Assembly (NCBI RefSeq): GCF_003399645.1
Contig: NZ_NBXD01000012.1
Coordinates: forward strand, 1-64,000
DNA length: 64,000 bases
Reading direction: 5' to 3'
Source of the DNA: Subtercola boreus
GTDB lineage: Bacteria > Actinomycetota > Actinomycetes > Actinomycetales > Microbacteriaceae
The notes under the pieces were generated by a model. The model was not told where the DNA came from. It did no database searches and saw only the letters and a list, made by a program, of their open reading frames with translations. Each line of letters opens with the position of its first letter. Within the stretch, counting starts at the first letter, position 1. Shown one piece after another: positions 1,807 to 20,176 of the stretch. The position numbers and the translations under genes were made by a program.

Positions 1807-3204
1807 TTAGACGGGTGACGGTGTGGAACGAGGGGTGAGCAGACGGCCGGAGAGTGTCGAGACGAGGGGTGCCTCGTCACGGGAGAACACGGCCGCGCCC
1901 GCAAGCCAGGTCGTATGCACGACCCCGCGCAGGTCGGAGCCCTCGAAGGCCGTGAGCTTGTTCTTGTGCTCGAGGTGGTCGGCGAGCACCGTGAAAGTCT
2001 CGTCCGGGGCGAACGCGATGAAGTCTGCGTCGGCGCCGGCCGCGAGCGAGCCCTTCTGCGGGAGGGCGGCCAGGCGCGACGTGCTGCCGGACATCCATTC
2101 GCTCACCGCCTCGAGGGAGATCTGCTGGTCGTGGGCGGCGGTCCAGACGGCGGCCAGGCTGACCTCAAGGCCGGAGATGCCGCCCCAGGCCAGGCCGAAA
2201 TCGCCGCCATGGGCGAGTTTCAGCTCGCGGGTGCTGGGGGAATGATCGGAGGCGATGAGGTCGATGTCGCCGGAGAGGAGCGCCTGCCACAGCGCCACAC
2301 GGTTTCTCTCGTCGCGGATGGGCGGGCAGCACTTGTACTGGGTCGCGCCATCGGGGATGCCTTCGGCGGCGAAACTGAGGTAGTGGGGACAGGTCTCGAC
2401 AGTGAGGCGCAGGCCGTCGGCCTTCGCGGCCCGGATGGCGGGCAGGGCGCTGGCCGCGGAGAGGTGCAGGATGTGGGCGCGCGCGCCGGTCATCCGGAGC
2501 CCCTCGATGAGGTGTTCGATCGCCTGGAGCTCGGAGGATTCCGGGCGGCTGGCCACGAAGTCGCTGTAGCCGACACCTCCGGCGTTCTCATGCTCGGCGA
2601 GCACGGCAGGGTCTTCGGCGTGAACGATCAGCAGCCCGTCGAACTCGGCGAGCTCTGCCAGGGCGAGGTGGAGCTGCTCGGTGCTGAGGTGGGGGAACTC
2701 GTCGACGCCGGAGGGGGAGAGGAACGCCTTGAACCCGAAGACCCCGGCGTCGTGCAGCTCGCGGAGGTGGCCGAGGCTCGACGGGATGGCGCCGCCCCAG
2801 AACCCGACGTCGACCGTGGCCTGGCGGGCGGCGGCCGTACGCTTCAGGGCGAGCGCCTCGGGAGTCGTGGTGGGCGGGATGCTGTTCAGCGGCATGTCGA
2901 TGATGGTGGTCACACCGCCGGCGGCGGCTGCGCGGGTGGCGCTGGCGAAGCCCTCCCAGTCGGTGCGGCCGGGTTCGTTGACGTGCACGTGCGTATCGAC
3001 GATTCCCGGGAGGAGCACCTGGCTGTCGGGGAGGGTCACGTCAGCGACAGCGCTGAACGGGGCGGCGATGTCGGCGATCGCGTGGATGGTGCCGTTTCGC
3101 ACCACGACGGCAGCCGGGCGGAACGTTCCGTCGACGAGTACGCGCTGCGAGCGCACGACGAGATCGTAGGTGCTGTCGGCCGGGGTGGGGGACTGTGGTG
3201 CCAT
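1807..3204 (-). CDS. allB: Allantoinase
   Basis: This 465-residue cyclic amidohydrolase should hydrolyse allantoin to allantoate, downstream of uricase. The dinuclear metal set of the allantoinase/dihydroorotase group is complete: DTHVHVNEPGR (His72, His74), carboxylatable Lys159 in GFKAFLSPSG, His195 in LLIVHAEDP, a His near 244-247 in AHILHLS, and Asp320 in IASDHSPS. The Pro-Asn-Ser stretch after IIDMPLN is also typical. It is the first gene of a two-gene operon with urate oxidase. The MTHFR-like gene is transcribed divergently from the 41-nt gap upstream. No strong Shine-Dalgarno is seen, so the transcript may be near-leaderless. Confidence 0.95.
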   Translation of the reverse strand: MAPQSPTPADSTYDLVVRSQRVLVDGTFRPAAVVVRNGTIHAIADIAAPFSAVADVTLPDSQVLLPGIVDTHVHVNEPGRTDWEGFASATRAAAAGGVTTIIDMPLNSIPPTTTPEALALKRTAAARQATVDVGFWGGAIPSSLGHLRELHDAGVFGFKAFLSPSGVDEFPHLSTEQLHLALAELAEFDGLLIVHAEDPAVLAEHENAGGVGYSDFVASRPESSELQAIEHLIEGLRMTGARAHILHLSAASALPAIRAAKADGLRLTVETCPHYLSFAAEGIPDGATQYKCCPPIRDERNRVALWQALLSGDIDLIASDHSPSTRELKLAHGGDFGLAWGGISGLEVSLAAVWTAAHDQQISLEAVSEWMSGSTSRLAALPQKGSLAAGADADFIAFAPDETFTVLADHLEHKNKLTAFEGSDLRGVVHTTWLAGAAVFSRDEAPLVSTLSGRLLTPRSTPSPV

Positions 3205-3245
3205 AATGCTGTTGTCTCGCCCTAACGTTGTGAGGAGTGCTGCCC

Positions 3246-4355
3246 GTGACAGCTGTGGTGGGAGTTTTCACGTGCCCCAAGAAGATGGAGTACGGCCCGT
3301 GCGGCGGGGTGGGGTTCGACGGCTGTTGCGAGGTGTCTGATCACCGGTGCGTGTTCGTCGATGCCCCGACGGTGCGGTGGCCGGGCGTAGCCGGCGACGG
3401 TCGGATGCCCGGCGAACCGGCCCCGAGCCAGGGCGTCGCGGCGGCGAACGCCGGTGCCGAGGCCATGCGTGCGGTGATCGCCGAGCGCCAGATCGTCGTG
3501 GCGGACTTTCCGGCTCGCGCGCTCGACGCGGCGTCGATCGCCGAGTGCGCCGCCCTGCTCGCCGGTGAGGTCGATGCGGTGCTGGCCGGAGACTCCGGGG
3601 CCGAACGGGTACAGTTCTCGCCCACCTACCGGGCCGCCCTCATCCAGAGCCAGGGGCTTGCCGTGTGGAGCGGCCTCAACTGCCGCGACCGCAACCGGGT
3701 GGCGATCGAGGGTGAACTGGCCGGGCTCGCAGACGTCGGGGTGGGCGGGGTGCACTGCGTGACGGGGGATCACACCCTGACGGGTTCCCGGCCGGATGCC
3801 CTGCCGGTCTTCGATCTCGACTCGACCCGGGTCGCGGCCCTGGCCCGTGCGGCGGGGCACCTGGTATCGGTGGGAGACTCGCCCGCGACTCCGCCCGTGG
3901 GTGAGCGAGCGGCGCGGCTGGTCGAGAAGGAGCGAGCCGGGGCCGAGATCGCGTTCGTCAACCACGCGGGCGGCGTGGAGCCCGTGGCCAGCTTCATCCG
4001 CGACGTGCGGCGGCACGAGGAGGCGGCCGGGCTGCGGGTGCGCGGCACGGGCGGGCTCGGGTTCGTGGGGTGCGTTCCGGTCGTCGTCGACCGCGGGAGC
4101 GCCGAGCTGCTCGCGACGTTCACCACGCTGGTGCTGCCCGAGGGGTATCTCGAGCGCATTCTGGGCGCCCGCGATGTGTACGCCGAGGGTGTCGCTGCAG
4201 CGATCGAGTTCAGCCAGGGGCTGCTCGAGCTGAGCGGGATGATCGGGGTCAATCTCTCGGGCGGGGCGACGCCGGGTCGCGAAGGTCACTTCGCCGATGC
4301 GCTCGCCCGCATCTCGGCGGGCATCGGCGTGCGGCAGCGCCCGGCGCGCGGCTAG
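3246..4355 (+). CDS. MetV-domain / methylenetetrahydrofolate reductase-like fusion protein
   Basis: This 369-residue protein begins with a Cys-rich domain (TCPKKMEYGPCGGV; Cys10, Cys19, Cys27/28, Cys35) like the MTHFR C-terminal/MetV domain. A barrel with MTHFR features follows: WSGLNCRDRNR near residue 140, VHCVTGDHTLTG, and GGLGFVGCVPVVVD. MetV-type domains partner MetF in acetogens and some C1 pathways; here both parts are in one chain with the Cys-rich part first. The GTG at 3246 is preferred over the GTG at 3237 because GAGGAG ends 8 nt upstream of it. A role in tetrahydrofolate C1 chemistry is inferred from family membership, and the actual reaction is unknown. It is divergent from allB and tail-to-tail (4-nt overlap) with the PNPOx-like gene. 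Confidence 0.75.
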   Translation: MTAVVGVFTCPKKMEYGPCGGVGFDGCCEVSDHRCVFVDAPTVRWPGVAGDGRMPGEPAPSQGVAAANAGAEAMRAVIAERQIVVADFPARALDAASIAECAALLAGEVDAVLAGDSGAERVQFSPTYRAALIQSQGLAVWSGLNCRDRNRVAIEGELAGLADVGVGGVHCVTGDHTLTGSRPDALPVFDLDSTRVAALARAAGHLVSVGDSPATPPVGERAARLVEKERAGAEIAFVNHAGGVEPVASFIRDVRRHEEAAGLRVRGTGGLGFVGCVPVVVDRGSAELLATFTTLVLPEGYLERILGARDVYAEGVAAAIEFSQGLLELSGMIGVNLSGGATPGREGHFADALARISAGIGVRQRPARG

Positions 4356-4972
4356 CCGGGGAGGATGGCAGTGCTCCATGTTCCGTCGGCCTCCCGGGTG
4401 TGCTCGGTGCGCCGGCTGGCGGTGTCGGGTCGACCGTGCCACAGGGTGACGCGACGGGGGCGGAGCAGGATGCCGGCCCAGGTCTCGGGCGGGGAGAGCG
4501 TGCCGGTGGCGTGCGCGGCGGTGAAGGCAGCCCAGTGGGAGAGCCGATCATCCAGAGCCTGCTGGGCGAACGCCGAGTCGTTCAGATGGGCGAGCACCTG
4601 CAGGTAGGGCGAGCGCTTGGCGAAGACGTGCGCTGCCGCATCGGAGGTGAGCATCTCGGTGTCACCGGTGACGCTGAGCTGGCGGCCGAATTCCGGCCAG
4701 GCGATGGTGAAGGATGCCCGGGGCGCGCGGGCGAGTTCGGCGACCTTGCGCGAGCGGGAGTCGGTGTGGAAGAAGAACCCCTCCTCGCTGAATTCGCTCA
4801 GCAGCACATGGCGCACGTCGGGGTAGCCGTCTTCGCCGAGGGTGGCGAGCGCGACGAGCGGACGCACGAACTCGTCGTTCGTCGGCAGCCACTCACGGAG
4901 TTCGCTGAGGAACGGAGCCGACGACAGGCCGACCGGGATGGTCGAGGCGCCCAGCGGATTGCCCGAGGCCAT
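4352..4972 (-). CDS. Pyridoxamine 5'-phosphate oxidase-family flavoprotein
   Basis: The 206-residue product has the FMN-binding split-barrel pattern of PNPOx proteins: RPLVALATLGEDGYPDVRHVL, GFFFHTDSRSRKVAELA, FTIAWPEFGRQLSVTG and an R-S segment (FAKRSPYLQ). The C-terminal dimerisation/PLP-contact region is present but the canonical RLHDR substrate motif of true PdxH is replaced by SRRTEH. I therefore call it a family member rather than pyridoxine-phosphate oxidase. It is the last gene of the eight-gene catabolic operon, and its ATG overlaps the stop of the FAD oxidase (TGATG), indicating translational coupling. Its flavin chemistry may serve that pathway. Confidence 0.8.
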   Translation of the reverse strand: MASGNPLGASTIPVGLSSAPFLSELREWLPTNDEFVRPLVALATLGEDGYPDVRHVLLSEFSEEGFFFHTDSRSRKVAELARAPRASFTIAWPEFGRQLSVTGDTEMLTSDAAAHVFAKRSPYLQVLAHLNDSAFAQQALDDRLSHWAAFTAAHATGTLSPPETWAGILLRPRRVTLWHGRPDTASRRTEHTREADGTWSTAILPG

Positions 4973-6321
4973 CAGGTGACCTTGCCGGCGCCCGCCACGG
5001 CCTCGGCACCCTCAGCCGGCAGCTTTCCCGGGTTGAAGAGGCCCTCGGGGTCTGTCTGCACCGCGAGGCGGCGCGTGCGCTCGACCTCGTGGTCGACCTC
5101 CCAGTGGTGCGGATTGTGCGAGCCCACGCCGAGCGCGTCGAGGGCCGCGAAGCCCGCGTAGACCTGTTCGGGGCTCTCATAGATTCCGGCGAGCATGCCG
5201 ATGGGGCGATTGTGCTGGGCTTCGATGTGCAGCATCCCTCCGTTGTACACGGCGTGCACCTCGTCGATGCGGTCGACCAGTGCGTCACCGGCCACCTCGA
5301 TGTGGAAGTACTTGCCCGGGTCGCTCTTCTGCAGCCACTCGATGGGGTGGTTGTACGAGAGCATGCTGATCTTCATCGAAGCCTGGGCGCCCTCGCGGAC
5401 ATCTTCGATGCGGCCGCCGGCGCCGAAGATGAGCGCGGTCGCCGCTTCGACGGTCGAGTCGTCGAGAATGGCGCGGAGGCTGGCGCGGTCCTTCGGGATG
5501 GCCGGGTCATCCGGCAGAGCGTTGGCGAGCACGGGCAGGTCGGCGGAGACGAGCCGGGGGGTGGGCTCGAGGCGCCCGATCTCACGGATGACGCTCAGCG
5601 CGTCGGCGAAGGTGTCGAAGCTGGCGTAGAGGCCCTTCCAGTTCTGCAGCGGCTCGAGCGCGAGGGTGGCGCGGGCGATGATGCCGAGGGTGCCGTACGT
5701 GTGCACGTAGGGCTCCGCGGCCTCGCCGTCGACATGGATGAGCCGGGCATCCGGAACCGCGTGCACCACATCGAGCGCCTTGACGAAGCCGGTGTGGTTC
5801 GAGCCGTGCTTGATCGACCCCGTGCCGCCGGAGCCGCCGGAGAGGAAGCCGCCGATCGAGGACTGTGCGGTGGAGGGGTACATGAGGATCTGCTGGCCTG
5901 CGGCGTTCGCCGCCTGCTCGATCATCACCATGGGAGTGCCGGCTTCGACGGTGATGAAGCCATCACCGACCTCGATCACGCCCCGGGCCTTCGACATGTC
6001 GAGCACGAGGCCGCCCTGCATCGGGATGCCCTGGCCGTAGTTGCCGGTGCCCTTGCCGCGGGGGGTGATGGGCACGTGGTGGCGCACGGCGGCCGCTATC
6101 ACGGCGGCGATCTGCTCGGCAGAGGTGGGGAACGCGACGAGGTCGGCCAGACCGAGCGGCAGCTGCGCCATCAGGATGGGGGAGAGGTAGGCGCCGTCGA
6201 TGGAGGCCTTCTCGCGCGCGCGGAGTTCGGTGGTGACGCCGCGGTCGCCGAGCAGTTCGCGGAGTTCCACGGCGAGGTCATCGGTGGCTTCGATGGTGGG
6301 GGCGGAGGTGGTGTCGGTCAT
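4972..6321 (-). CDS. FAD-binding oxidase (GlcD/VAO-type)
   Basis: The 449-residue protein has a PCMH-type FAD domain: ADLVAFPTSAEQIAAV, PITPRGKGTGNYGQG (about residues 85-100), LVLDMSKARGVIEV, and PSTAQSSIGGFLSGGSGG. It ends with the family's typical LFNPGKL motif. Such enzymes oxidise alcohols, hydroxy acids or amines with FAD; the substrate cannot be read from the sequence. A good Shine-Dalgarno (GAGGAA, 6-7 nt) supports the ATG at 6321. It sits between the creatininase-family gene (56-nt gap) and the PNPOx-like gene (1-nt overlap), so it is probably part of one degradative pathway with them. Confidence 0.88.
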   Translation of the reverse strand: MTDTTSAPTIEATDDLAVELRELLGDRGVTTELRAREKASIDGAYLSPILMAQLPLGLADLVAFPTSAEQIAAVIAAAVRHHVPITPRGKGTGNYGQGIPMQGGLVLDMSKARGVIEVGDGFITVEAGTPMVMIEQAANAAGQQILMYPSTAQSSIGGFLSGGSGGTGSIKHGSNHTGFVKALDVVHAVPDARLIHVDGEAAEPYVHTYGTLGIIARATLALEPLQNWKGLYASFDTFADALSVIREIGRLEPTPRLVSADLPVLANALPDDPAIPKDRASLRAILDDSTVEAATALIFGAGGRIEDVREGAQASMKISMLSYNHPIEWLQKSDPGKYFHIEVAGDALVDRIDEVHAVYNGGMLHIEAQHNRPIGMLAGIYESPEQVYAGFAALDALGVGSHNPHHWEVDHEVERTRRLAVQTDPEGLFNPGKLPAEGAEAVAGAGKVT

Positions 6322-6377
6322 TCGGGTTCCTCGGGTTCCTCAGGTGTTCAGGGGTGAAGGGACGGATGTCGCGGGGA

Positions 6378-7181
6378 TCAGCCCGCAGAGAAGCCGATAC
6401 GCTTCTGGGGTGCTGTCGGGGTGAAGCGGGCGATCTCGGCGAGGGCGGCCGCGGCCTGGGCGACGTTGTTCTCGAAATGGGCCCTGCCGAATTCAGCGGT
6501 CGCGGTGGTCGGGTCGCCGATGACGCCGGAGGCCGCGAAGTCACGGCTCACCCAGCCGAAGCTGACGGGCTTGCCGAAACCGACGTACTCGTAGTCGAGG
6601 AGGTGCTCGGGAACGCTCCGCACGGCGAGGCTCATGTCGACGAGCTCGGGGCGGAGGTGCAGCACCACGCTGGTCTCGACGTGACCGCCGTGGATGCCGA
6701 GTCCGAACTCGGTCTCACCCGACTTCGCACCGCCGTTGGCCGGCATCTGGCCGCCGATCAGAAAGGTCTGCAGGCCGAACCGGCGGCGGAGCTCCCGGCA
6801 GGCGACCTGCAGCAGGGCGACATTGCCGCCGTGGCCGTTGTAGAAGACGAGCCTGGTGCAGGGTGTCTGGGCGATCGACTCGCCGATCTCGACGATCGTC
6901 TGCATCAGCGTCTCCCAGCTGAGCCAGACGGTGCCGGGCGCCCAGTGGTGCTCGTCGGACTTCGTGTAGGCGAGGCCGGGGAGCAGCCAGGCGTTGACAC
7001 CGTTCGCAGCCGCGAGGTCGACAGCGGCTTTCGCCGACTCCTCGGCGACGAGGAAGTCGGTCGACAGCGGCAGGTGCGGCCCGTGGTGCTCGATCGCCCC
7101 GGTGGGCAGTACGACGACGGAGTCGGTGCGCAGGGCCTCGACGGCGGCGAGGCTGGAGAGTTCGACGAGGTTGCGCGGCAT
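6378..7181 (-). CDS. Creatininase-family amidohydrolase
   Basis: The 267-residue protein carries the creatininase-family metal ligands: GAIEHHGPHLPLSTD (Glu, His and Asp near residues 30-43), FYNGHGGN (His near 116), and HGGHVETSVV (Glu near 168). The family hydrolyses small cyclic or linear amides (creatinine, formamidopyrimidines, a mycofactocin peptide), so exact activity is open. AAGGA lies upstream of the ATG. The gene follows the SDR by 54 nt in the operon. With a CodA-like deaminase upstream, a ring-opening or deamidation step in N-heterocycle degradation is the likeliest role (inference). No creatinase or sarcosine oxidase is in the window, which argues against a plain creatinine pathway. 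Confidence 0.88.
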   Translation of the reverse strand: MPRNLVELSSLAAVEALRTDSVVVLPTGAIEHHGPHLPLSTDFLVAEESAKAAVDLAAANGVNAWLLPGLAYTKSDEHHWAPGTVWLSWETLMQTIVEIGESIAQTPCTRLVFYNGHGGNVALLQVACRELRRRFGLQTFLIGGQMPANGGAKSGETEFGLGIHGGHVETSVVLHLRPELVDMSLAVRSVPEHLLDYEYVGFGKPVSFGWVSRDFAASGVIGDPTTATAEFGRAHFENNVAQAAAALAEIARFTPTAPQKRIGFSAG

Positions 7182-7235
7182 GGCTTCAATCCTTGGGGGG
7201 TGGTTCGCGGGTGAGACGGGTGGGGCGGTCGTTCG

Positions 7236-7997
7236 TCAGTGCATGATCATCCCGCCGGTGACGTTGAACGACTGGCCGGTGAGGTAGTCGGCATCGGGGC
7301 TGGCGAGAAAAGCGGCGACCCCGGCGACATCGTCGGGCTGCGCCAGCCTGCCGAGTGGGGAGTAGCTCGACCACTGGGCGATGTCGGCCTCCGTGCGGGT
7401 TGCCGCACCCATCTCGGTGAGCACATAACCCGGGCAGAGGCAGTTGGCCGTGATCGAGTGGGCGCCCAGTTCGAGCGCGGTGACCCGGGTGAGGGCGATG
7501 ACGGCGGCCTTCGAGGCGGCGTAGTGGCCCTGGCCGGCACCACCGGTCTTGCCGCCCATGCTCGCCATGTTGATGATCTTTCCGGGCGACTTCTGGGCGA
7601 TCATCCGTTTCGCGGCCACCTGCGTGGTGACCAGCATGGCGCGCGTGTTGATCTGGAACATCGCGTCCCAGTCGGCGACGGAGATCTCGAGCAGGGGGGC
7701 GAAGCGCAGGATGCCCGCGTTGTTGACGAGCACGTCGATACCGCTGAGCGCATCCATCGCCTCGCCGAGCGCGTCGCGGGTGTTCTGTTCGTCAGAGAGA
7801 TCGACCCGGTGGAAGGTGCCGCCGATCTCAGCGGCGGTGGCCCGGCCCTGCTCTTCGAGCAGGTCGAGGATCGCGACATCCGCCCCCTCGCCTCTGAAAC
7901 GCCGGGCGATGGAGGCGCCGATGCCACGGGCTCCGCCGGTGACCACGACACGGCGCCCCGAAAGGCGAGCGGTGGGCACCGGCGAAGCGTGTGTCAT
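7236..7997 (-). CDS. Short-chain dehydrogenase/reductase (SDR)
   Basis: This 253-residue classical SDR has the Rossmann motif TGGARGIG (about residues 20-27), NNAG near residue 92, a catalytic Ser in INMASMGG, YAASKAA near residue 160, and PGYVLTEM. Asp at the end of strand 2 (AILDLLEE) suggests NAD(H) preference. It probably oxidises an alcohol or hydroxy intermediate in the operon's pathway. It starts 4 nt after the stop of the ABC substrate-binding protein, so it is clearly in the same operon. Confidence 0.9.
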   Translation of the reverse strand: MTHASPVPTARLSGRRVVVTGGARGIGASIARRFRGEGADVAILDLLEEQGRATAAEIGGTFHRVDLSDEQNTRDALGEAMDALSGIDVLVNNAGILRFAPLLEISVADWDAMFQINTRAMLVTTQVAAKRMIAQKSPGKIINMASMGGKTGGAGQGHYAASKAAVIALTRVTALELGAHSITANCLCPGYVLTEMGAATRTEADIAQWSSYSPLGRLAQPDDVAGVAAFLASPDADYLTGQSFNVTGGMIMH

Positions 7998-8001
7998 CGG
8001 A

Positions 8002-9171
8002 CTACTTCAGACCGATGGAGGTGTCGATGAACTCATTGGTGAAGATGTCGGCGGGGGTCAGGCCCGACTTGACCGCCTTGCCTCCGGCGGCATAGATCGG
8101 GGTGTCGACGTCGATGATCTTCTGCACGTTGATTTCATCCATGTCGCCGATCGTGCTGTTGTCGCCGTTGCCGACGAGTCCGAGGTCTTTCTGGGTCTTG
8201 ACCGAGTAGTCGGCCATGCCCTGCGAGTAGACCCAGCCGGTGTTGAACTGCGTGACCAGGTCGAGGATCATCGTGTTCACGGCGTCGGGGCTGTCGAAGT
8301 AGTCGACCTCCGCCTGCTGCAGCACGGGTACGAGGGCCTTCAGGCAGCCCGAGAGCTTCTCTTTGTCGCCCGTCTTGATCGAGACAGCGGATGCGTAGAC
8401 CGGGTACCCGGCGTCACCGATCGTCTGGTAGTTCACGGCCTTGCCCCACGCCGGCACCTCGTACTGGTACTGGTACGGCTCGGCGCTGGCGAAGCCCTGC
8501 TGGCCCGCCTTGCCCTGGTCGGCGACGAAGCTGGCGGGGGTGCCGTCGTAGCTGCCGTCGGTCTTGTCCTTCGACAGGAGGCCGGCGCTGATCAGGTACT
8601 CCATGTAGGCCGAGCCGCCGAAGTAGCGAACGACGGCGTCGGTCTTGCCGAGGTCGGCGATCGTCTTGACGTTCGGGTAGGTCGCCGGGTCCCACATGAT
8701 CATCAGCGGGGTCTTGTCCAGGGGCGCGAAGACGGCGGTCGTGGGCTGGTCGGCCGAGAGCTGCACGGCCTCGTCGGTGGTGACATAGCCGAGGGTGATG
8801 TCGGGGTCGGCGTACATCTGGCTGGTCACGGTCTGGAAACCGATGGCAGGGCCGCCCGAGCGGATCTCGACGTTGACGCCGGTCGCCGCGCCATTCGAGT
8901 ACAGCGGGCCGGAGACCGACTTCTGGTTGGCGTCGACCACCGGGTTCGGGCCGAGCAGTTCGTACAAATGGCCGTGCTCGGCTTCGGGGTTCCAGTCGGT
9001 CTGGATGACGACCGTGGCCGGGCAACCCGCAGCCGCGAGGTCGACCCCGCCGGCTGCAGCGCTCGCCGCAGGGGTGGTGGTGGCGCCGCCCGAGCTGCAG
9101 GCGGCGAGGGCCGCCATGCTCAGAATGGCGAGGCCGCTCGCGAGAACGACTCTCTTGGACTGTTTGCGCAT
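8002..9171 (-). CDS. ABC transporter substrate-binding lipoprotein (NitT/TauT-like system)
   Basis: The 389-residue product starts MRKQSKRV followed by a hydrophobic stretch and the lipobox LAAC (Cys about residue 25), then a Gly/Ala/Thr linker. It is therefore a membrane-tethered solute receptor. The body contains VVIQTDWNPEAEHGHLYELLG near the start of the mature domain, as in binding proteins of the SsuA/ThiY type. The start at 9171 is chosen for AAGGAG 5 nt upstream and the signal peptide; the frame runs open to 9279 without such support. It is encoded with a permease and an ATPase immediately upstream. The ligand is unknown; the neighbouring deaminase, creatininase-like and oxidase genes suggest a nitrogenous ring compound. 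Confidence 0.88.
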   Translation of the reverse strand: MRKQSKRVVLASGLAILSMAALAACSSGGATTTPAASAAAGGVDLAAAGCPATVVIQTDWNPEAEHGHLYELLGPNPVVDANQKSVSGPLYSNGAATGVNVEIRSGGPAIGFQTVTSQMYADPDITLGYVTTDEAVQLSADQPTTAVFAPLDKTPLMIMWDPATYPNVKTIADLGKTDAVVRYFGGSAYMEYLISAGLLSKDKTDGSYDGTPASFVADQGKAGQQGFASAEPYQYQYEVPAWGKAVNYQTIGDAGYPVYASAVSIKTGDKEKLSGCLKALVPVLQQAEVDYFDSPDAVNTMILDLVTQFNTGWVYSQGMADYSVKTQKDLGLVGNGDNSTIGDMDEINVQKIIDVDTPIYAAGGKAVKSGLTPADIFTNEFIDTSIGLK

Positions 9172-9260
9172 GAGTTCTCCTTGGGATGTGTGCAGGGGAA
9201 GTGCTGTGCTGGTGCGGGAGGTGCTGTGCGGGTGGTGCGGTGGGACAGTTGAGGGGGGAA

Positions 9261-10145
9261 TCAGTTGAAGTCGTACCACTTGCCGACGGCGCGTCGGCCG
9301 AGCAGTCCGAAGAGCCAGAAGATGACGACGCCGAAGAGGGCGGCTGTGATGATCGTTGCGAACAGCTGTTCACCCTGCAGGCGCGAGCTGTAGTTGCTGA
9401 TCAGGATGCCGAGACCGGGCGTTCCGCGTCGGAAGAACTGGTCGCCGACGATGGCGCCGACCACGGCGAGGCCGGCCGAGATGCGCATGCCCGCGAAGAT
9501 CGCCGGAAGGGCGGCAGGGAACGACAGCTTCAGGAGCGTGGTCGTGCGGCTCGCATCCTGCAGCTTGAACAGCTCTTTGTGGCCCTTGTCGACGGACTGC
9601 AGACCGAACAGCGTGTTGTTGACCATCGGGAACAGGGCGATCATCACGCAGACGAGCACCCGCGACTGGAACTCGTAACCGAACCAGAAGCCGATGAGCG
9701 GAACGAGGGCGAGAATCGGGATGCACTGCAGAATGACGGCGTAGGGGAAGAGTGAGCGTTCGATCCACTTCGCCTGCGACATGGCGACGGCCCAGGCGAC
9801 ACCGATGACGATGGCGATCGCGAGCCCTAGCATGGAGACGATGACCGTCTGCCAGAGTGCCACGATCAGGGCGTTGAACGACAGCGGATCGATGAACCCC
9901 TTCATGATGATGTCCTGCGGCAGCGGCAGCAGGAAACGCAGGGCCGGGTTGAGCACGAAGAGACTGATCAGGTACCAGACCACCACGATCGCGAGAAAGA
10001 CGATGAGCGGGGGCAGCCACTTGGTGATGCGGTTCTTGCCCTTCGGCTTCGCGACCGTCGCGGTGACCGGGAGCCCGGGGGTGGGGTGGGACTGGAGCGT
10101 GTCGACGTCGTCTCCGACCGCCGTTTCGTTCGAGATGGTGGTCAT
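9261..10145 (-). CDS. ABC transporter permease (NitT/TauT family)
   Basis: The 294-residue membrane protein has six or so hydrophobic segments after a polar 40-residue N-terminus. It has the family's EAA-like loop (FKLQDASRTTTLLKLSFPAALPAIFAGMRIS, about residues 200-230), which contacts the ATPase. The first membrane segment is IVFLAIVVVWYLISLFV. It overlaps the ATPase gene by 4 nt. An 89-nt gap separates its stop from the binding-protein start, long enough for differential expression of the receptor. Confidence 0.92.
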   Translation of the reverse strand: MTTISNETAVGDDVDTLQSHPTPGLPVTATVAKPKGKNRITKWLPPLIVFLAIVVVWYLISLFVLNPALRFLLPLPQDIIMKGFIDPLSFNALIVALWQTVIVSMLGLAIAIVIGVAWAVAMSQAKWIERSLFPYAVILQCIPILALVPLIGFWFGYEFQSRVLVCVMIALFPMVNNTLFGLQSVDKGHKELFKLQDASRTTTLLKLSFPAALPAIFAGMRISAGLAVVGAIVGDQFFRRGTPGLGILISNYSSRLQGEQLFATIITAALFGVVIFWLFGLLGRRAVGKWYDFN

Positions 10146-10927
10146 GAGTGGCCGTGTCCCTTCCGGAGAGCGTGCGAGACCTCGCCGACGAGCGCGGCGT
10201 ACTCGGGGGTGAAGCGGATCTCGGGATCGCGGGGTTGCGGGAAGGGCACGTCGAACGTCTCGACGATCTTTCCGGGCCGGCCCGACATGACGACGACCTT
10301 GGTCGACATGTAGACGGCTTCGGAGACGGAGTGGGTGATGAACAGCCCGGCGAAGTTCTTGGCGTTGAAGAGCCGGATGAGTTCGTCGTTCAGGCGCTCG
10401 CGGGTGATCTCGTCGAGAGCACCGAACGGCTCATCGAAGAGAAAGAGCTCGGGGTCGAGCGTCAACGAGCGGGCGAGGGAGGCGCGCATCTTCATGCCGC
10501 CCGAGAGAGCACGCGGCAGGTGCTTCTCGAAGCCTTTCAGGCCGACGAGCTCAATGGCCTCTGCGGCCTTCTCGGCGCGGGCCTTCTTCTTCTCGCCGTG
10601 CAGCTCGGCGAGCAGTTCGACGTTGTCGGTCACCGTGCGCCAGGGCAGCAGCGTCGCATCCTGGAAGACGTAGCCGATGCGGTCGGTGCCCAGCTCTGCG
10701 GTGCCGTGCGAGGCGTGTTCGAGGCCCGACGCGATGCGCAGCAGGGTGCTCTTGCCGCAGCCCGAGGGGCCCACGACGGTCACGAACTCACCGCGCTTGA
10801 CGACGAGATCGACGCCCTGCAGCGCGATGGTGCCGTCGGGGAAGGTCATCTCGACGTCGCGGAAGTCGAGCAGAGTGTCGGTCGGGGTCGAATGTGTGGC
10901 GCGTGGTGCGGGGGATGTGAGAGTCAT
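10142..10927 (-). CDS. ABC transporter ATP-binding protein (SsuB/TauB-like)
   Basis: This 261-residue nucleotide-binding subunit has Walker A GPSGCGKSTLLR (about residues 54-65), a Q-loop in GYVFQDATLLPW, the signature LSGGMKMRASLARSL, Walker B LFLFDEPFGALD and the H-loop FITHSVSEAV. Sequence style matches importers of sulfonates, taurine, pyrimidine-type thiamine precursors and related compounds. It starts 7 nt after the CodA-like gene and overlaps the permease by 4 nt. Confidence 0.93.
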   Translation of the reverse strand: MTLTSPAPRATHSTPTDTLLDFRDVEMTFPDGTIALQGVDLVVKRGEFVTVVGPSGCGKSTLLRIASGLEHASHGTAELGTDRIGYVFQDATLLPWRTVTDNVELLAELHGEKKKARAEKAAEAIELVGLKGFEKHLPRALSGGMKMRASLARSLTLDPELFLFDEPFGALDEITRERLNDELIRLFNAKNFAGLFITHSVSEAVYMSTKVVVMSGRPGKIVETFDVPFPQPRDPEIRFTPEYAALVGEVSHALRKGHGHS

Positions 10928-10934
10928 GGCAGCT

Positions 10935-12197
10935 CTACCTCGTTTGCAGGAGTGACGGTTGGCGTGCGGGGGAGGGCAGGGCGACGTCGTACGTCACAGT
11001 GCTCTGGGCAACGAGGTTGCCGGCATGGATCACGTACCGGTCTGCCGAGGCGTTGGCCACGGCATCCGAGAGGTTGGTGGCCCTGATGGCGAGCAGCTCG
11101 GCGCGGGCACCGACGGCGACACCGGCCGAGGGGAGCGCCATGACGGCGCGGGCTCCATCGCTCACCGCGGTGTACGCCTCGTCGAGCGTGAGGTGGCCCG
11201 CGATGACGAGGAGTGAGGCGGTCTCGAGCGCATCGCTTCGGCCGACCGGGTTGAAGGGGTCGCGCACATTGTCGGCGCCAGCGGCAAAACGGATGCCGCC
11301 GCGGTCGAGCACGGCGCGGGCTGCGGTGAGTCCGCGGGGCGTCGAGACCGGGTGCTCCCAGCCCTGCAGGTAGAGGTTGGTGATCGGGTTGGCGATGATG
11401 CCCACGTCGGAGGCTTCGACCTCGTCGAGAACGGCGGCCAGATCATCCTGCTGCAGTGTGCCGAGCCGCACGCAGTGTCCGGCGCTGCGGTTGCGCTCGG
11501 TGGGCCAGTCACGAACGCTCTGGGCGAATTCGGCGAGAGTGAGCGCGCCGGTGAGGTTCTCGTCGGTGTGGATGTCGACGCCCACGCCCTTGCGCTCGGC
11601 GAGGCGCAGCAGGCGCTGCAGATCGGCGCTGGGGTCGATCGCGAGGTGCGGGGAGCCGCCGACCAGGTCGACTCCGAGGTCGATCGCGGCCTCGATGTCG
11701 GCGTCGGGAACGTCGGAGCCGGCGAGGGCGACGATCTCGATGTGCATCAGGTCGCGGAGCTCCTCCCGCACCTGGAGGATCGCCCGCACTCCGCGGAGGG
11801 GTTCGTCACCGAGCAGCACGTCGACGTGACTGCGCACAGCGGTGGTGCCCTGGCGCAGCATCAGCAGAGCTGCCTTTCGGGCCCGCTCGACGATGCTCTC
11901 GGTGGTCATGGTCTGGGCGTACGCGCGCCACGCGAGGATCGCCGAGACGAGGTCGCCCATCGGCGGGTCGATCGCGTCCCACGACAGCGCCTTGTCGAGG
12001 TGAGCGTGCGGGTCGGCGGGGGCGGTGAGCAGCAGGAACCCGGTGAGGTCGAGGGTGTCGCCGCCCGCTTCGACGGGCACGCTGTGCGCCGGACCGATCG
12101 CGCCGACCGTGTCGCCATCGAGTCTCACGTCGCAGGTCGAGCCGTCGGGCAGTGTTGCGTTCTGCAGCAGAGTGACCCGACGAGGCAGTGCGTTCAC
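10935..12197 (-). CDS. Amidohydrolase, cytosine deaminase (CodA)-like
   Basis: This roughly 420-residue metal-dependent hydrolase of the CodA branch keeps every expected ligand: DPHAHLDKAL (HxH), VDIHTDENL (His and catalytic Glu), a His in RSAGHCVRL, and Asp in AAGADNVRDPFNP. The last motif resembles CodA HDDVFDPWYP. It probably deaminates or hydrolyses a pyrimidine-like or related ring. The reading frame opens at GTG 12206, but AGGAG would then be only 1 nt away. The GTG at 12197 is 10 nt from AGGAG and is preferred. It is the first gene of the operon running down to 4352, with a divergent XRE-cupin regulator on the other side of a palindrome-rich intergenic region. Confidence 0.85.
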   Translation of the reverse strand: MNALPRRVTLLQNATLPDGSTCDVRLDGDTVGAIGPAHSVPVEAGGDTLDLTGFLLLTAPADPHAHLDKALSWDAIDPPMGDLVSAILAWRAYAQTMTTESIVERARKAALLMLRQGTTAVRSHVDVLLGDEPLRGVRAILQVREELRDLMHIEIVALAGSDVPDADIEAAIDLGVDLVGGSPHLAIDPSADLQRLLRLAERKGVGVDIHTDENLTGALTLAEFAQSVRDWPTERNRSAGHCVRLGTLQQDDLAAVLDEVEASDVGIIANPITNLYLQGWEHPVSTPRGLTAARAVLDRGGIRFAAGADNVRDPFNPVGRSDALETASLLVIAGHLTLDEAYTAVSDGARAVMALPSAGVAVGARAELLAIRATNLSDAVANASADRYVIHAGNLVAQSTVTYDVALPSPARQPSLLQTR

Positions 12198-12251
12198 GGT
12201 ATTCACACTCCTGGCGACGACGGGTTGCGGCCCGCTGCGAAGGGCACGCGG

Positions 12252-12326
12252 ATGTTGATGTGTTCAACATGTCAAAACTTACGGTTGGCGCGTTTCCAAC
12301 GTGTAACACGAACATTTCGGAGTGTT
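12252..12326. promoter_or_regulatory. Divergent control region with several palindromes
   Basis: The 266-nt gap between the CodA-like gene and the XRE-cupin gene is AT-richer than its surroundings. It contains a perfect 7-bp inverted repeat ATGTTGA-N5-TCAACAT (12252-12270), GTTGG-N7-CCAAC (12284-12300), GTGTAACAC (12301-12309), and AACAC-N12-GTGTT (12305-12326). Their clustering between divergent genes fits operator sites for the adjacent regulator. The promoters themselves could not be assigned with confidence. Confidence 0.55.
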
Positions 12327-12463
12327 AAGAAGGGGCGATCCGGTTTGTCGAACGGGTGGTCGGGGCGGTTACTGTTCGTCAGGGGCGTCTGCCCCCGCTT
12401 CGTGCGCGTGTCGTTCCCGTCGCGAGATCCGTCGACGTTGATCGCTGTTGAGAGGAGGCCGTG

Positions 12464-13093
12464 ATGCCGCAGGTAGTCGGAGCCCTCGACCCGCAGACCC
12501 TGCAGCTGGGGGCTGCCATCCGGGCGGCACGGCTCGCCAAGGCGTTCACGCTCGTGGAGCTGGCCCGACTCTCGAACCTCTCGCATCCGTTCCTCAGCCA
12601 GCTCGAGCGCGGGCACGCGCGGCCCAGCATGGCGTCGCTCGAACGCATTGCGCGCGCGCTGGAGACGAGCCAGCTCGACCTGCTCGCGGGCGCTGCCGAT
12701 TTCGATGCGACGGATGCGTGGGGTGAGGTCACCGTGTCGGCCCACGGCCGGTCGGCCCCCCGCGTCGAGACCCGGGCACACGTCGTGAGGGCGAGTGAGG
12801 GAACGCGGGGCCCGTACGCCGAAGGGCAGGGACGCCTGCTCGTCGATGCGCGGGCCCGGTTCCAGCCGATGGATTTCACGGCCAGCAATGCAGGGTTCGG
12901 CGACTTCTACCATCACGCCGAAGACGAGTTCGTCACGGTGATCGCGGGTGGAGTCGTCGTCGACCTCTCCGGTGACGGAGAATTCGTTCTGGCGGCCGGC
13001 GATTCGGTGTACTACCAGGGTGGCACGGCGCACCGGTGGCGGTCGCTCGACAGCGGGGCCTACCGCCTGCTGATCGTCAAGCAGCGTCTCTGA
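12464..13093 (+). CDS. XRE-family transcriptional regulator with C-terminal cupin domain
   Basis: The 209-residue protein has an N-terminal helix-turn-helix (about residues 12-67; IRAARLAKAFTLVELARLSNLSHPFLSQ region). A C-terminal cupin follows (about 140-205; FYHHAEDEFVTVIAGG, LAAGDSVYYQGGTAHRW) that likely senses a small ligand. Such regulators usually control an adjacent catabolic or transport operon. This one is divergent from the CodA-ABC-SDR-creatininase operon and separated from it by palindromes, so it is the obvious candidate regulator. The ATG at 12464 is chosen over GTG 12461 because GGAGG ends 5 nt before it. Confidence 0.9.
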   Translation: MPQVVGALDPQTLQLGAAIRAARLAKAFTLVELARLSNLSHPFLSQLERGHARPSMASLERIARALETSQLDLLAGAADFDATDAWGEVTVSAHGRSAPRVETRAHVVRASEGTRGPYAEGQGRLLVDARARFQPMDFTASNAGFGDFYHHAEDEFVTVIAGGVVVDLSGDGEFVLAAGDSVYYQGGTAHRWRSLDSGAYRLLIVKQRL

Positions 13094-13218: not shown

Positions 13219-14184
13219 GTGAACCTTCATCCCCTGCCCGCCTTCGACGTGGTCGTCACCGGCCGCGCCGAGATCGCGAGCGACATCGTGCTGCTGACCT
13301 TGGAGCGTGCCGGCGGGGAAGCGCTGCCGTCGTGGTCTCCGGGGGCGCACATCGACCTGATGCTGCCGAACGGTATCGAACGCCAGTATTCGCTCTGCTC
13401 CGACCCCGCTGACACGGCTCGCTGGAGTGTAGCGGTGCTTCGTGAGGCCGCAGGTCGAGGCGGTTCGGAATACGTTCACTCCACGCTTGCCGTCGGCGAG
13501 ACCCTGCGCGTGCGTGGCCCCCTGAACCACTTCGCGTTCGACACGGCCCCGGAGTACGCGTTCGTCGCCGGAGGGATCGGGATCACGCCGCTGCTGCCGA
13601 TGATCCGGGCTGCCGAAGCGGCCGGGGTGCCGTGGACGCTCGACTACGCCGGACGGTCGGAAGGCTCGATGGCTTTCGTCCGCGAGCTTCGATCCGATCA
13701 TCCGTTGCAGGTGTCGGTGTACTCCAGCGAAGCGGGCGAACGGCTCGCGCTCGACGAACGCTTCGCATCGGTTGCTGCCGGGGCGCTCGTGTACTGCTGC
13801 GGGCCGTCGCGTCTGCTCGATGCCGCGCAGGCGGTCGCAGACGGTTCCGGATGGCCGGCGGGGCGATTGCATCTGGAGCGGTTCGAGGCGAAGGCGGCCG
13901 GCGCGCCGGTGCTCGCCGATGCGTTCGACGTGGAACTCGAGCTTTCGGGGATGACGCTGACGGTGCCGCCGGAGCGGAGCATCCTCGACGTGGTGGAGGA
14001 GGCGGGCGTGCTGGTTCTGTCGTCGTGCCGCGAAGGAACGTGCGGCACCTGCGAGACGCCGGTCGTCTCGGGCGAGGTCGACCACCGCGACTCGGTACTG
14101 ACGCCCGAAGAGCAGGCCGACAACGAGGTCATGATGATCTGCGTGTCACGGGCAGCGTGCCCGCGGTTGGTGCTCGAGCTCTAG
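13219..14184 (+). CDS. PDR/VanB-type oxidoreductase (FMN/NAD domain plus 2Fe-2S ferredoxin)
   Basis: This 321-residue electron-transfer protein has a flavin-binding barrel (RQYSLCS near residue 55), an NAD-binding region (FVAGGIGITPLLPMI near residue 115; YCCGP near 193) and a C-terminal plant-type ferredoxin domain. The cluster cysteines are in SSCREGTCGTCE (about 270-281) and ICVSRAACPR. Proteins of this layout reduce Rieske-type oxygenases such as vanillate demethylase or phthalate dioxygenase. No oxygenase gene is present in the window, so the partner is unknown. It may belong with the regulator upstream (125-nt gap) or act alone. GTG start with a GAGAGAG-rich purine tract upstream. Confidence 0.9.
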   Translation: MNLHPLPAFDVVVTGRAEIASDIVLLTLERAGGEALPSWSPGAHIDLMLPNGIERQYSLCSDPADTARWSVAVLREAAGRGGSEYVHSTLAVGETLRVRGPLNHFAFDTAPEYAFVAGGIGITPLLPMIRAAEAAGVPWTLDYAGRSEGSMAFVRELRSDHPLQVSVYSSEAGERLALDERFASVAAGALVYCCGPSRLLDAAQAVADGSGWPAGRLHLERFEAKAAGAPVLADAFDVELELSGMTLTVPPERSILDVVEEAGVLVLSSCREGTCGTCETPVVSGEVDHRDSVLTPEEQADNEVMMICVSRAACPRLVLEL

Positions 14185-14226: not shown

Positions 14227-15648
14227 TCACGCGGGGCGGCGGGCGGTGAGGAGGGTCGTGAGGTCGGCGGCGATGTTGCGCTCGTCGTGGGCGACGAGGC
14301 GGTAGTCGCGCACCACGACGCGGCCCGCCACGACGACGTGCTTCGGGCGGCGGCCCGGGTTGGCCCAGAGAAGGCCCGCCACGGGATCGGCGATGCCTGC
14401 GTCGGACGCACCGGTGACGTCCCAGACGCAGAGATCGGCGGCGCTGCCGGGGGTGAGCGAGCCGAGTTCGGGGCGGCCGAGACCGGCGGCGGATCCGCGG
14501 GTGGCCATGCCGAGAATCTGCCGGGCCGGGATCGGCGCACCGACCAGCGGGGCGACCTGCATCGCAAGGCGGGCGTCGGCGAGCAGGTTCGAGGCGTCGT
14601 TGCTGCCGCCGCCGCTGGTGCCGAGGCCGACGGCGATTCCGGATGCCCGGAGCGCCGCCACGGGTGCGATACCCCATCCCATCGGCAGATCGCAGGCGGG
14701 AGCATGGGTCGCGGTCACGCCGGCCGCCGACAGCCGGGCGATCTCGTTCTCGGTGACCGCGCAGAGGTGGGCAAGGGTCACGTCGGGGGTGAGCCAGCCC
14801 CAGTCGTCCAGCAGGTCGATGGGCCGTCGACCGTACTTCTCGAGCGCGATCGCCACGTCGACCTGTTCGTTCGCCTGGCTGCGGCGTCTCAGTCCGAAGC
14901 GTTCGGCGACCTCGGCGAGCAGGCGGAACGTCTCGGGGCTGTCGCTGTGCACTCCTGCCGGGCCGACCGCCACCTGCAGCATCCCGTCGGCGCGTACCCC
15001 GCCCTCCGCGCCCGGTACGAGGGCCTGCACGATCGATTCCGCCGAGAGGGCCGCCTGTTCGGCATCGTCTCGGGCTGACCCGCGCACGAAGACGAGTCGG
15101 GCGCCGAGCTCTGCGGCGGCCTGCGCTGCGGCACTCGCGATCTGCACGGTCAGGACATTGTCGGTGTTGCCCGGCCCCCCGGGCCAGTTCAGGTGGTGGT
15201 CGGCGACCGTCGTCACACCGCAGAGCAGACTCTCGGCGAGGCCGACGAGGGCAGCAGCGTGTTCGAGCTCAGGGTCTATGCCGACCTCGGCATATGCGGC
15301 GGCCATGGTCGGCAGCCAGCTCGCCATGGGAACGCCACGCGTGCCGTGCAGGGTGCGGAAGGCCGACTGCAGCAGGTGGTGATGGGCATTGACGAGACCG
15401 GGGGTGACGACGCAGCCTGTGGCGTCGAGGGTCTCGTCGGAGGAGTCTGCGGAGTGGCCCGCGGGCCCTCTGCGGTCACCGTTGGAGGCCGGGTCGGAAT
15501 GGCCCGCGGCGGCCCTGCGGTCATCGTTGGAGGGCTGGTCGGAGTAGCCCGCGCCAGCCACCACGCGGCCGCCGTCGAGGTGCAGATCGGCGGTCGTCTC
15601 GGTCGATTCGTCGACGAAAGTCGCGATGGCGTTGTGAATGGTGAGCAT
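14227..15648 (-). CDS. 8-oxoguanine/guanine deaminase-like amidohydrolase with altered metal site
   Basis: This 473-residue protein is in the TrzN/8-oxoguanine deaminase branch of the amidohydrolase superfamily. It has GLVNAHHHLLQS (first metal His pair), TTVADHHL, WGWLTPDVTLAHL (His) and the C-terminal TPGSAADLCVWD. The fifth-strand motif that is normally HTHLAE reads RSQANE (only Glu kept), and the eighth-strand GTDGSxSND reads GTSGGGSND, losing the catalytic Asp. Its N-terminal strand region contains a 45-bp tandem repeat giving a Gly/Ser/Asp-rich insert (residues about 34-72). It lies divergent from the XdhC-like gene, so a purine-catabolic origin is likely, but present activity is doubtful. 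Confidence 0.8.
   Translation of the reverse strand: MLTIHNAIATFVDESTETTADLHLDGGRVVAGAGYSDQPSNDDRRAAAGHSDPASNGDRRGPAGHSADSSDETLDATGCVVTPGLVNAHHHLLQSAFRTLHGTRGVPMASWLPTMAAAYAEVGIDPELEHAAALVGLAESLLCGVTTVADHHLNWPGGPGNTDNVLTVQIASAAAQAAAELGARLVFVRGSARDDAEQAALSAESIVQALVPGAEGGVRADGMLQVAVGPAGVHSDSPETFRLLAEVAERFGLRRRSQANEQVDVAIALEKYGRRPIDLLDDWGWLTPDVTLAHLCAVTENEIARLSAAGVTATHAPACDLPMGWGIAPVAALRASGIAVGLGTSGGGSNDASNLLADARLAMQVAPLVGAPIPARQILGMATRGSAAGLGRPELGSLTPGSAADLCVWDVTGASDAGIADPVAGLLWANPGRRPKHVVVAGRVVVRDYRLVAHDERNIAADLTTLLTARRPA
15451..15540. repeat. 45-bp tandem repeat inside the amidohydrolase gene
   Basis: Two adjacent 45-bp copies (15451-15495 and 15496-15540) and the start of a third encode HSDPASNGDRRGPAG-like units near the N-terminus of the deaminase-like protein. 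The unit is a multiple of three, so frame is kept. Confidence 0.8.
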
Positions 15649-15702
15649 GAATGAGTTCTAACATTCTTTTGTGTCGCGTTCGTGACGCGGGAGGGACTTC
15701 GC

Positions 15703-20100: not shown

Positions 20101-20148
20101 CGGGCGCGGGGTGACCTCGAGCGGACGGCCGTTGACGTCGAACCTCAT
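17107..20148 (-). CDS. Xanthine dehydrogenase-type enzyme: fused [2Fe-2S] and Moco subunits
   Basis: This 1013-residue protein joins two subunits that are usually separate. Residues 1-140 are the two-cluster [2Fe-2S] subunit (Cys36, 41, 44, 56 and Cys95, 98, 126, 128). A low-complexity Ala/Gly/Pro/Thr linker (about 141-223) leads to the Moco subunit (IVTGRERYTLDLAVPG; RVGGGFGGKQEIQTE; GAFRGYGLGQV; near the end GAKSMSES with the expected catalytic Glu). Together with the FAD subunit encoded upstream it should oxidise xanthine/hypoxanthine or a related heterocycle. Neighbouring XdhC, Moco and uricase genes favour xanthine. GAGGAG lies 6 nt before the ATG. The 28-nt gap to the FAD gene indicates one operon. 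Confidence 0.9.
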   Translation of the reverse strand: MRFDVNGRPLEVTPRPGQSLRTLLRDTSHFEVKKGCDTGDCGACSVLVDGTPIHSCVFPAHRVEGRDVTTVAGLGTPDDLHPVQQQFVNAAGFQCGYCTAGMVVTASTLTDADPADLPRLMKGNLCRCTGYRAINDALHGVSNIANPGCSARAAASGSPCSAHAGSGCPSRSASADTAPPAVPGTATREPVTGATALLADTAAAAAAGTADAPTDTGRTAPTTIIRSVGTSVRAPAGTDIVTGRERYTLDLAVPGLLYLVVLRSPHPHARITSIDTAAARALDGVAAVFTHENVPTTLFSTARHQNRTEDPDDTRILDSVVRFRGQRVAVVVAESIAIAEEACRLLDVTYEVLSANFDPARAQLPGIPPLHADKDAAASRIADPTRNLVAELHGEYGDLAQGLDDADVTVSGTWQTARISASALETHATVGWLDDDGRLVLRTSSQVPFLVQNEIARIFDLDLEKIRVFTTRVGGGFGGKQEIQTEDLVTLAVLATGRPVQYEMTRTDELTVVPCRHPMTTSVTLGATRDGRLTAMHVTVLSDTGAYGNHGPGTMFHGCAESVSLYNSPNKRVDAEAVYTNNMPSGAFRGYGLGQVIFGIESAMDDLAIALGMNPFDLRRLNAVGPNDPLVITHVEGDDLVFGGSYGLDQVLDLAQSALARGNGVAAPEGDEWKVGEGMATAMIATIPPRGHFATSSVTLGLDGVYTLSVGTAEFGNGTTTVHSQLAATALNTEPGSLVIRQSDTDVVPYDTGAFGSAGTVVAGKAVLAAATALALKLREAAAALTGTAAAEWMLESEGLRSGGRFVPLTEVAASGAHAENMAATSPDDGLTATSEPGTVTIPGGRARVLATAFGITATGEHDGAQRSLAFNVHAFRVGVHTGTGEIRILQSVHAVDAGFVINPEQCRGQIEGGVAQGLGTAMFEELLIGEDGEALTSVLRNYHLPSIADLPVTEVYFAETTDGLGPFGAKSMSESPYNPVPAALANAVRDAIGVRPHELPISRDRVWRLLHG

Positions 20149-20176
20149 GCGGGCTCCTCGCGAATCTCGGTGGCGT

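Follow-up and report, generated by a model that had tools for sequence, protein, structure and literature searches.

What kind of compound does the actinobacterium Subtercola boreus take up and degrade with the products of an eight-gene operon at 4352–12197 of contig NZ_NBXD01000012.1 (assembly GCF_003399645.1)? The window referred to below is the whole of the 64,000 nucleotides analyzed, the beginning of this contig. A first-pass annotation of the window had suggested that the operon imports a nitrogen ring compound and degrades it step by step. The comparisons reported here lean modestly toward a pteridine of the folate or pterin type, which the operon would import and break down oxidatively as the actinobacterial version of a widespread module. 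Gene content, conservation, relationships, a predicted fold and a conserved site are established here; from these we infer the substrate and every reaction.

The eight genes are intact and tightly packed on the minus strand, with the gene for an XRE-cupin regulator opposite and divergent, as judged by open reading frames (ORFs), Pfam and NCBIfam. The spacings from the CodA-like gene to the PNPOx-like gene are 7, −4, 89, 4, 54, 56 and −1 nucleotides, a range of −4 to 89 that bears out the close spacing and overlaps described earlier. In an alignment of the window with three congeners, the GTG at 12197 is conserved and that at 12206 is not, and therefore the first-pass annotation was right to end the operon at 12197. 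The genes for an MTHFR-like protein and a PDR/VanB-type reductase are linked to the operon, outside its span (Table 1).

The conservation of this gene set was followed from the family outward. The family to which the host belongs was represented by 299 genomes, and the gene for the flavin adenine dinucleotide (FAD) enzyme was present in 51 of them, that of the host among these (E 1e-60). Loci were fetched from 20 of the 50 other positive genomes, spread over genera, as stretches of 14–19 kb beyond whose ends flanking genes may fall. The CodA-like, FAD, creatininase-family and PNPOx-like genes occur together in all 20; the receptor, permease and ATPase genes, the XRE-cupin gene and the PDR/VanB-type reductase gene are each present in 19. 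The FAD and creatininase-family genes do not always come in the same order, and the SDR gene is present in only some loci (10/20). PNPOx-like genes were found in 50 of the 51 oxygenase-positive family genomes vs. 3 of the 248 negative ones, those three being weak matches (Fisher 4.6e-52, relatedness ignored). In the class, 25 of 394 genomes carry the FAD gene (E 1e-50), and six loci of another actinobacterial family keep the series CodA-ATPase-permease-receptor-oxygenase with oxygenases 41–43% identical to that of the window.

Homologs of the FAD gene are also present in 126 plasmid records, with 27–31% identity among the 40 matches listed. In five plasmid regions, from Alloyangia, Comamonadaceae, Rhizobium tumorigenes, Pseudosulfitobacter and Klebsiella, the oxygenase gene is accompanied by genes for a creatininase-family protein, receptor, ATPase, permease, RidA and an amidohydrolase or ‘cytosine deaminase’. 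In four of these regions an NAD(P)H-dependent or PDR/VanB oxidoreductase is annotated, and in Klebsiella a PDR/VanB-type reductase gene adjoins that of the oxygenase. A scan of named genomes took the best 80 of at least 465 relatives and counted neighbors within 8 kb of the oxygenase gene, low-GC cyanobacterial counts being minima. It gave ATPase 53 (some perhaps from unrelated ABC systems), receptor 49, creatininase-family 48, permease 46, flavin mononucleotide (FMN) reductase 45, CodA-like 43, RidA 30 and PDR/VanB-type reductase 4. Of the 45 loci with at least four of six partners, 42 have a reductase (38 FMN-type only, 4 PDR/VanB-type only, none both) and 3 have neither type. The idea that the two reductase types exclude each other was dropped, since a Variovorax locus described below (L201) carries both. 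The co-occurrence of these genes elsewhere, which had been proposed as a test, is thus found in the family, the class, plasmids and Proteobacteria. It supports the catabolic operon first proposed, as one that is co-inherited; the operon is real and widely shared, beyond what chance would give.

Evidence on the substrate comes first from the FAD enzyme. The earlier label of a GlcD-type FAD oxidase did not hold; the glcD model scores 63 bits against a cut-off of 568, and FAD_binding_4 is the sole Pfam domain. Among 24 PDB sequences, 6v42 was the only full-length match (143 bits, residues 37–436). A fold model built from 53 sequences had a mean predicted local distance difference test (pLDDT) score of 83; that from the single sequence had a mean of 37 and was not usable. 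The first Foldseek match of the former was again 6v42, with a template modeling (TM) score of 0.85 and E 1.3e-34, followed by D-lactate dehydrogenase at 0.75. On sequence and model, the name 6v42-like flavin oxygenase suits the enzyme better. The deposit title of 6v42 is ‘Crystal structure of the flavin oxygenase with cofactor bound involved in folate catabolism’. The 6v42 fragment that was compared is 86% identical to a Hoeflea protein and 76–77% identical to Mesorhizobium proteins, and the genes for these relatives sit with genes for a creatininase-family protein, RidA, receptor, ATPase, permease, CodA-like enzyme and FMN reductase.

A second line of evidence is provided by the deaminase. 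In the CodA-like enzyme, H67, H69, H213, E216, H244 and D312 are invariant in nine of nine aligned cluster homologs; after CodA, we take these six positions to form the amidohydrolase active site. A cytosine deaminase (CodA) identity was rejected, every CodA model falling under its cut-off (NF005748, 177 of 438 bits; NF006685, 120 of 483 bits). An enzyme of 399 residues from Variovorax sp. F1 deaminates folic and pteroic acid, is 37% identical to Arad3529, and in V. paradoxus is encoded upstream of a conserved ‘endoribonuclease’ gene (PMC9513972). Eight genomes behind the loci above were searched with the 5′ primer of this assayed deaminase, a search that also returns chance matches, and four stretches were taken. 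Two Variovorax genomes encode amidohydrolases of 396 and 400 residues that begin MKLEAVR and MKLEALR, the primer encoding MKLEAVR, and a RidA-family gene follows each. Because N-terminus, length and RidA neighbor agree, these two are likely orthologs of the assayed folate/pterin deaminase. Near both lie genes for a TetR protein, PDR/VanB-type reductase, receptor, oxygenase, permease, ATPase and creatininase-family protein, and near one an FMN reductase gene. The likely ortholog thus stands in the same kind of cluster as the 6v42 relatives. The deaminase of a Rhizobium cluster shares 36 and 34% identity with the Variovorax pair, near the 37% given for Arad3529 (PMC9513972), and one may guess that Arad3529 is a rhizobial cluster enzyme. 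Each of the two Variovorax genomes has two separate clusters (L103 and L196/L200; L107 and L198/L201), and the likely ortholog is in only one of the two, L103 and L107 being the first clusters.

The MTHFR-like gene would fit a folate-type substrate. It is present in 31 of the 51 oxygenase-positive family genomes vs. 1 of the 248 negative ones (Fisher 1.7e-27, relatedness ignored), it occurs in 12 of the 20 fetched family loci, and it adjoins the CodA-like gene in five of the six loci of the other actinobacterial family. The one negative genome that has it (G072) carries it twice, along with an importer and a gene that by eye resembles a cyclodeaminase gene. Among nine homologs of the protein, PF12225 is matched by eight and PF02219 by three, and in a paralog of a congener PF02219 is above its cut-off. 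The window protein and the MetF of the host align at E 3e-6; since that MetF is encoded elsewhere in the genome, the linked gene is additional to it. A congener (G007) has a second locus (L096, L184) with an oxygenase paralog (46%), an XRE-cupin gene, two MTHFR-like genes, an FTCD_C cyclodeaminase gene and a THI5-like importer. It is a more openly folate-like sister locus.

A sequence of reactions can be proposed on these grounds. The THI5-like receptor and ABC importer would take up a pterin-type ring compound. The CodA-like enzyme would remove the amino group of the ring, converting a pterin to the lumazine type, by analogy with the Variovorax deaminase. The FAD oxygenase, reduced via the PDR/VanB-type reductase, may then oxygenate the pteridine, as suggested by 6v42 and by the reductase genes beside oxygenase genes, and the creatininase-family hydrolase would open the resulting cyclic amide or ureide. 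The PNPOx-like protein and the SDR may contribute accessory redox steps. The weakest link is the MTHFR-like protein, which might bind or convert a folate-type one-carbon species. Ureide products may enter the adjacent allantoin pathway.

Several observations weigh against a pteridine. Identity between the window oxygenase and 6v42 is about 25%. A tree of 123 homologs (a quick method, with support by Shimodaira–Hasegawa-like approximate likelihood ratio test only) places the former among 30 proteins of an actinobacterial clade (support 100) that is sister to the 6v42 clade. The two clades may differ in substrate, because one actinobacterial locus (L085) carries both side by side; its second oxygenase is on a long branch, so that its placement is unsure. 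The folate tag of 6v42 is its deposit title, and no paper on this enzyme was found in the open-licence literature. The window CodA-like enzyme shares 29 and 32% identity with the Variovorax pair, whose genes each have three mismatches to the primer and no match to two other primers of the assayed deaminase. RidA was found in none of 34 actinobacterial loci vs. 30 of the 80 named loci, and it is therefore not universal in the module. An FTCD_C gene was searched for in the host genome and none was found. The neighbors of the operon are purine rather than folate genes (carboxypeptidase G and p-aminobenzoyl-glutamate hydrolase were not searched for). Of the oxygenase-positive family genomes, 20 of 51 are without the MTHFR-like gene, which was also absent from all 80 named loci (tblastn, E 1e-6) and hence lies outside the general module. 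The window MTHFR-like protein matches PF12225 alone, with PF02219 unmatched, and its family profile gave no match among PDB sequences. The Gln of the ITQ motif, important in MetF, is missing from it.

The surroundings of the operon raise the possibility of a different substrate. Since it sits in an island of uricase, allantoinase and xanthine-dehydrogenase-like genes, the operon could act on a purine-like compound, such as a methylated or oxidized purine, as a branch of the surrounding pathway that feeds urate or ureide to uricase and allantoinase. Two of the flanking genes are equivalogs, those for uricase and allantoinase, and with them are genes for an enzyme of the 8-oxoguanine deaminase (OxoGD) group, an XdhC protein and xanthine-dehydrogenase-like subunits. 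Of the 20 family loci, 14 have allantoinase, 13 OxoGD-type genes and 9 uricase. In the six loci of the other actinobacterial family, however, no purine-gene query matched while the core stays, and OxoGD-type genes are near only 3 of the 80 named loci (5 at a laxer threshold). The folate tag of 6v42 and the assays of the Variovorax enzyme on folic and pteroic acid (PMC9513972) also speak against a purine, which we consider unlikely. The neighboring OxoGD-type amidohydrolase was also considered as an isoxanthopterin deaminase, an identity that would have helped the case for pterins but was not supported. Its nearest solved relatives are a triazine hydrolase and 8-oxoguanine deaminase, with 2paj well behind.

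Table 1. Positions in the window of the operon genes, the linked genes and site, and the flanking purine genes
Feature	Position	Strand	Basis and occurrence
CodA-like amidohydrolase, proposed pterin-type deaminase	10935–12197	−	PF07969/PF01979; all CodA models under cut-off
NitT/TauT-type ABC ATPase	10142–10927	−	PF00005; taurine/nitrate ATPase models best but under cut-off
NitT/TauT-type ABC permease	9261–10145	−	PF00528
THI5/ThiY-like lipoprotein receptor	8002–9171	−	No Pfam match alone; assigned via profile of cluster homologs
SDR oxidoreductase, optional member	7236–7997	−	PF13561; 10/20 family loci
Creatininase-family amidohydrolase, proposed ring-opening hydrolase	6378–7181	−	PF02633, 218 bits; 20/20 family loci
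FAD flavin oxygenase, 6v42 type	4972–6321	−	FAD_binding_4; 6v42 sequence and fold match
PNPOx-like flavoprotein, not PdxH	4352–4972	−	PF01243
Operator-like palindrome ATGTTGA-N5-TCAACAT	12252–12270	.	Inverted repeat, conserved in relatives
XRE-cupin regulator	12461–13093	+	HTH_3 and Cupin_2; 19/20 family loci
PDR/VanB-type ferredoxin reductase, proposed oxygenase electron donor	13219–14184	+	FAD_binding_6, Fer2, weak NAD_binding_1; 19/20 family loci
MTHFR-like protein, linked, tail to tail with operon	3237–4355	+	PF12225
Uricase	888–1904	−	TIGR03383, 338 bits, cut-off 168; 9/20 family loci
Allantoinase	1807–3204	−	TIGR03178, 540 bits, cut-off 358; 14/20 family loci
TrzN/8-oxoguanine deaminase group amidohydrolase	14227–15648	−	Nearest solved relatives; 13/20 family loci
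Xanthine-dehydrogenase-like subunits, two genes	17107–20980	−	Under equivalog cut-offs

The importer gives some ground for a third reading. A profile of nine cluster receptors, that of the window and eight others, matches 4nmy, ThiY (3ix1) and THI5, and NMT1 is matched by five of the nine. By sequence, a receptor of the THI5/ThiY type suits a pyrimidine-containing ring, pteridines included, and makes no choice among such rings. The substrate could be a simple pyrimidine (for instance a methylated cytosine or the pyrimidine of thiamine) that a ThiY-like importer takes up and flavin oxygenation opens, as in the Rut pathway of uracil breakdown. The presence of a cytosine-deaminase-like enzyme is in keeping with this, and the RidA proteins, flavin reductases and isochorismatase-type hydrolases of homologous clusters recall RutC, RutF and RutB, respectively. 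Like the Rut system, the module pairs a flavin oxygenase with a reductase. It differs in having an oxygenase of another fold family, an ABC importer, an additional deaminase and a creatininase-family hydrolase. The Rut oxygenase is RutA, and a RutA-type luciferase-like domain was found in none of the eight operon proteins by Pfam. With the cytosine deaminase models all under their cut-offs and the linked relatives, 6v42 and the Variovorax deaminase, pointing to pterins, a simple pyrimidine appears somewhat less probable even than a purine.

The creatininase-family and PNPOx-like members might indicate breakdown of creatinine, a hydantoin or vitamin B6. The former protein is under the cut-offs of the creatininase, MftE and IolN models, with 90 of 235 bits for creatininase (TIGR04448). 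A pyridoxamine phosphate oxidase (PdxH) identity was rejected for the latter (TIGR00558, 99 of 180 bits); it has TASRR where PdxH would have RLHDR, which we take to be the motif of that enzyme, and the earlier description of a PNPOx-like protein lacking RLHDR was correct. The pyridoxal 4-dehydrogenase model was likewise under its cut-off, at 179 of 325 bits. These scores make a substrate of this group very improbable. Of the substrate first suggested, the nitrogen ring stands, and the pyrimidine-, B6- or creatinine-like kind gives way to a pteridine, the conditional choice made above.

The operon is probably controlled from the gap between the deaminase and regulator genes. A divergent XRE-cupin gene across a palindrome-rich gap had been noted earlier, and the gap does contain one perfect 7-5-7 inverted repeat, ATGTTGA-N5-TCAACAT, its other repeats being of six bases. 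This palindrome is unchanged in the window and three congeners, in a gap alignment with a mean column identity of 68%. The core TGTTGA-N5-TCAACA occurs exactly and once per locus, between the regulator and deaminase genes, in 17 of the 20 family loci. It has one mismatch in a further locus (L052) and two in another (L055); the remaining locus (L042) has neither the core nor a detectable XRE-cupin gene. In the host genome there is one exact core site, in this gap, and two sites with one mismatch; the reversed control gave none. A sigma-70 scan of the gap found no promoter. We predict, from the pattern of conservation, that the XRE-cupin protein binds the palindrome and acts locally, and it may act through this site on both divergent promoters.

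The first-pass annotation knew of no named pathway with this set of genes. That view needs revision, because close relatives of the 6v42 oxygenase and the likely Variovorax deaminase ortholog lie in clusters of the same kind. No complete published pathway matching gene for gene, and no paper on this gene set, was found in the open-licence literature. Relatives of two operon enzymes are already tied to folate breakdown. The operon shares with the 6v42/6v43 rhizobial cluster the oxygenase fold and full-length homology, together with creatininase-family, CodA-like, THI5-like receptor, ATPase, permease and reductase genes. It differs in the sister-clade position of its oxygenase, in having a PDR/VanB-type rather than an FMN reductase with no RidA found, and because it adds the PNPOx-like, MTHFR-like and XRE-cupin genes with the operator-like site and the purine island. 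The window operon is thus a diverged member of a recognizable module, not a new type. Its deaminase, of putative activity, is an amidohydrolase like that of Variovorax sp. F1 (PMC9513972), whose likely orthologs lie in clusters with RidA, oxygenase, importer and creatininase-family genes.

More tentatively, and with the odds slightly against it, the operon might be the actinobacterial form of a general bacterial pathway for opening the pteridine ring of folate (vitamin B9). This pathway would employ a pterin deaminase, a flavin oxygenase with its reductase and a hydrolase of the creatininase fold, be wired into purine/ureide salvage with an XRE-cupin switch, and extend over Actinobacteria, Proteobacteria and, in part, Cyanobacteria. 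Bacterial opening of this ring is poorly described; a cell extract left deaminopteroic acid undegraded in the Variovorax report (PMC9513972). In the module, a structure deposited under ‘folate catabolism’ and a likely ortholog of an assayed deaminase come together in a single gene set, and its creatininase-family hydrolase, importer, reductase and RidA become candidates for the missing steps. For annotation it also supplies more plausible labels than ‘cytosine deaminase’, ‘glycolate oxidase’ or ‘creatininase’, and the question is directly testable in soil and plant bacteria. If true, this reading would give vitamin B9 a counterpart to the riboflavin pathway. The riboflavin/lumichrome pathway, in the part of its description available, is likewise a cluster for breakdown of a vitamin ring and includes a xanthine oxidase along with several hydrolases. 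None of the eight genes corresponds to its P450, its thiamin-dependent decarboxylase or its Rieske dioxygenase, and by this enzyme content a lumichrome pathway was ruled out (PMC12746152).

Some loci depart from the common form. By plain ORFs, a Nostoc locus (L127) has receptor-ATPase-permease-oxygenase, and another locus (L119) has oxygenase, creatininase-type and isochorismatase genes. In Microcystis and Arthrospira (L135, L137) the oxygenase homolog stands, by eye, without the rest of the cluster. The actinobacterial locus with both oxygenase clades also contains two OxoGD-type amidohydrolases (L085, 2318–17062). In another (L087, 2163–12733), a flavin reductase, an isochorismatase-type hydrolase and an amidase with an AtzH-like domain lie beside the core, and these extra enzymes are candidates for late steps to ammonia. 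An FAD dehydrogenase of about 815 residues, of the dimethylglycine/sarcosine type by eye, is encoded beside the cluster in four loci of Mesorhizobium and its kin (L158–L160, L167). In the window itself, a BKACE-family ORF at 25785–26504 has a best match covering the first 110 of 274 model positions and is perhaps short or differently coded at its end. The XdhC-family gene at 15682–17076 contains a Gly-rich repeated insert of GGLTDGG-like units between its two domains.

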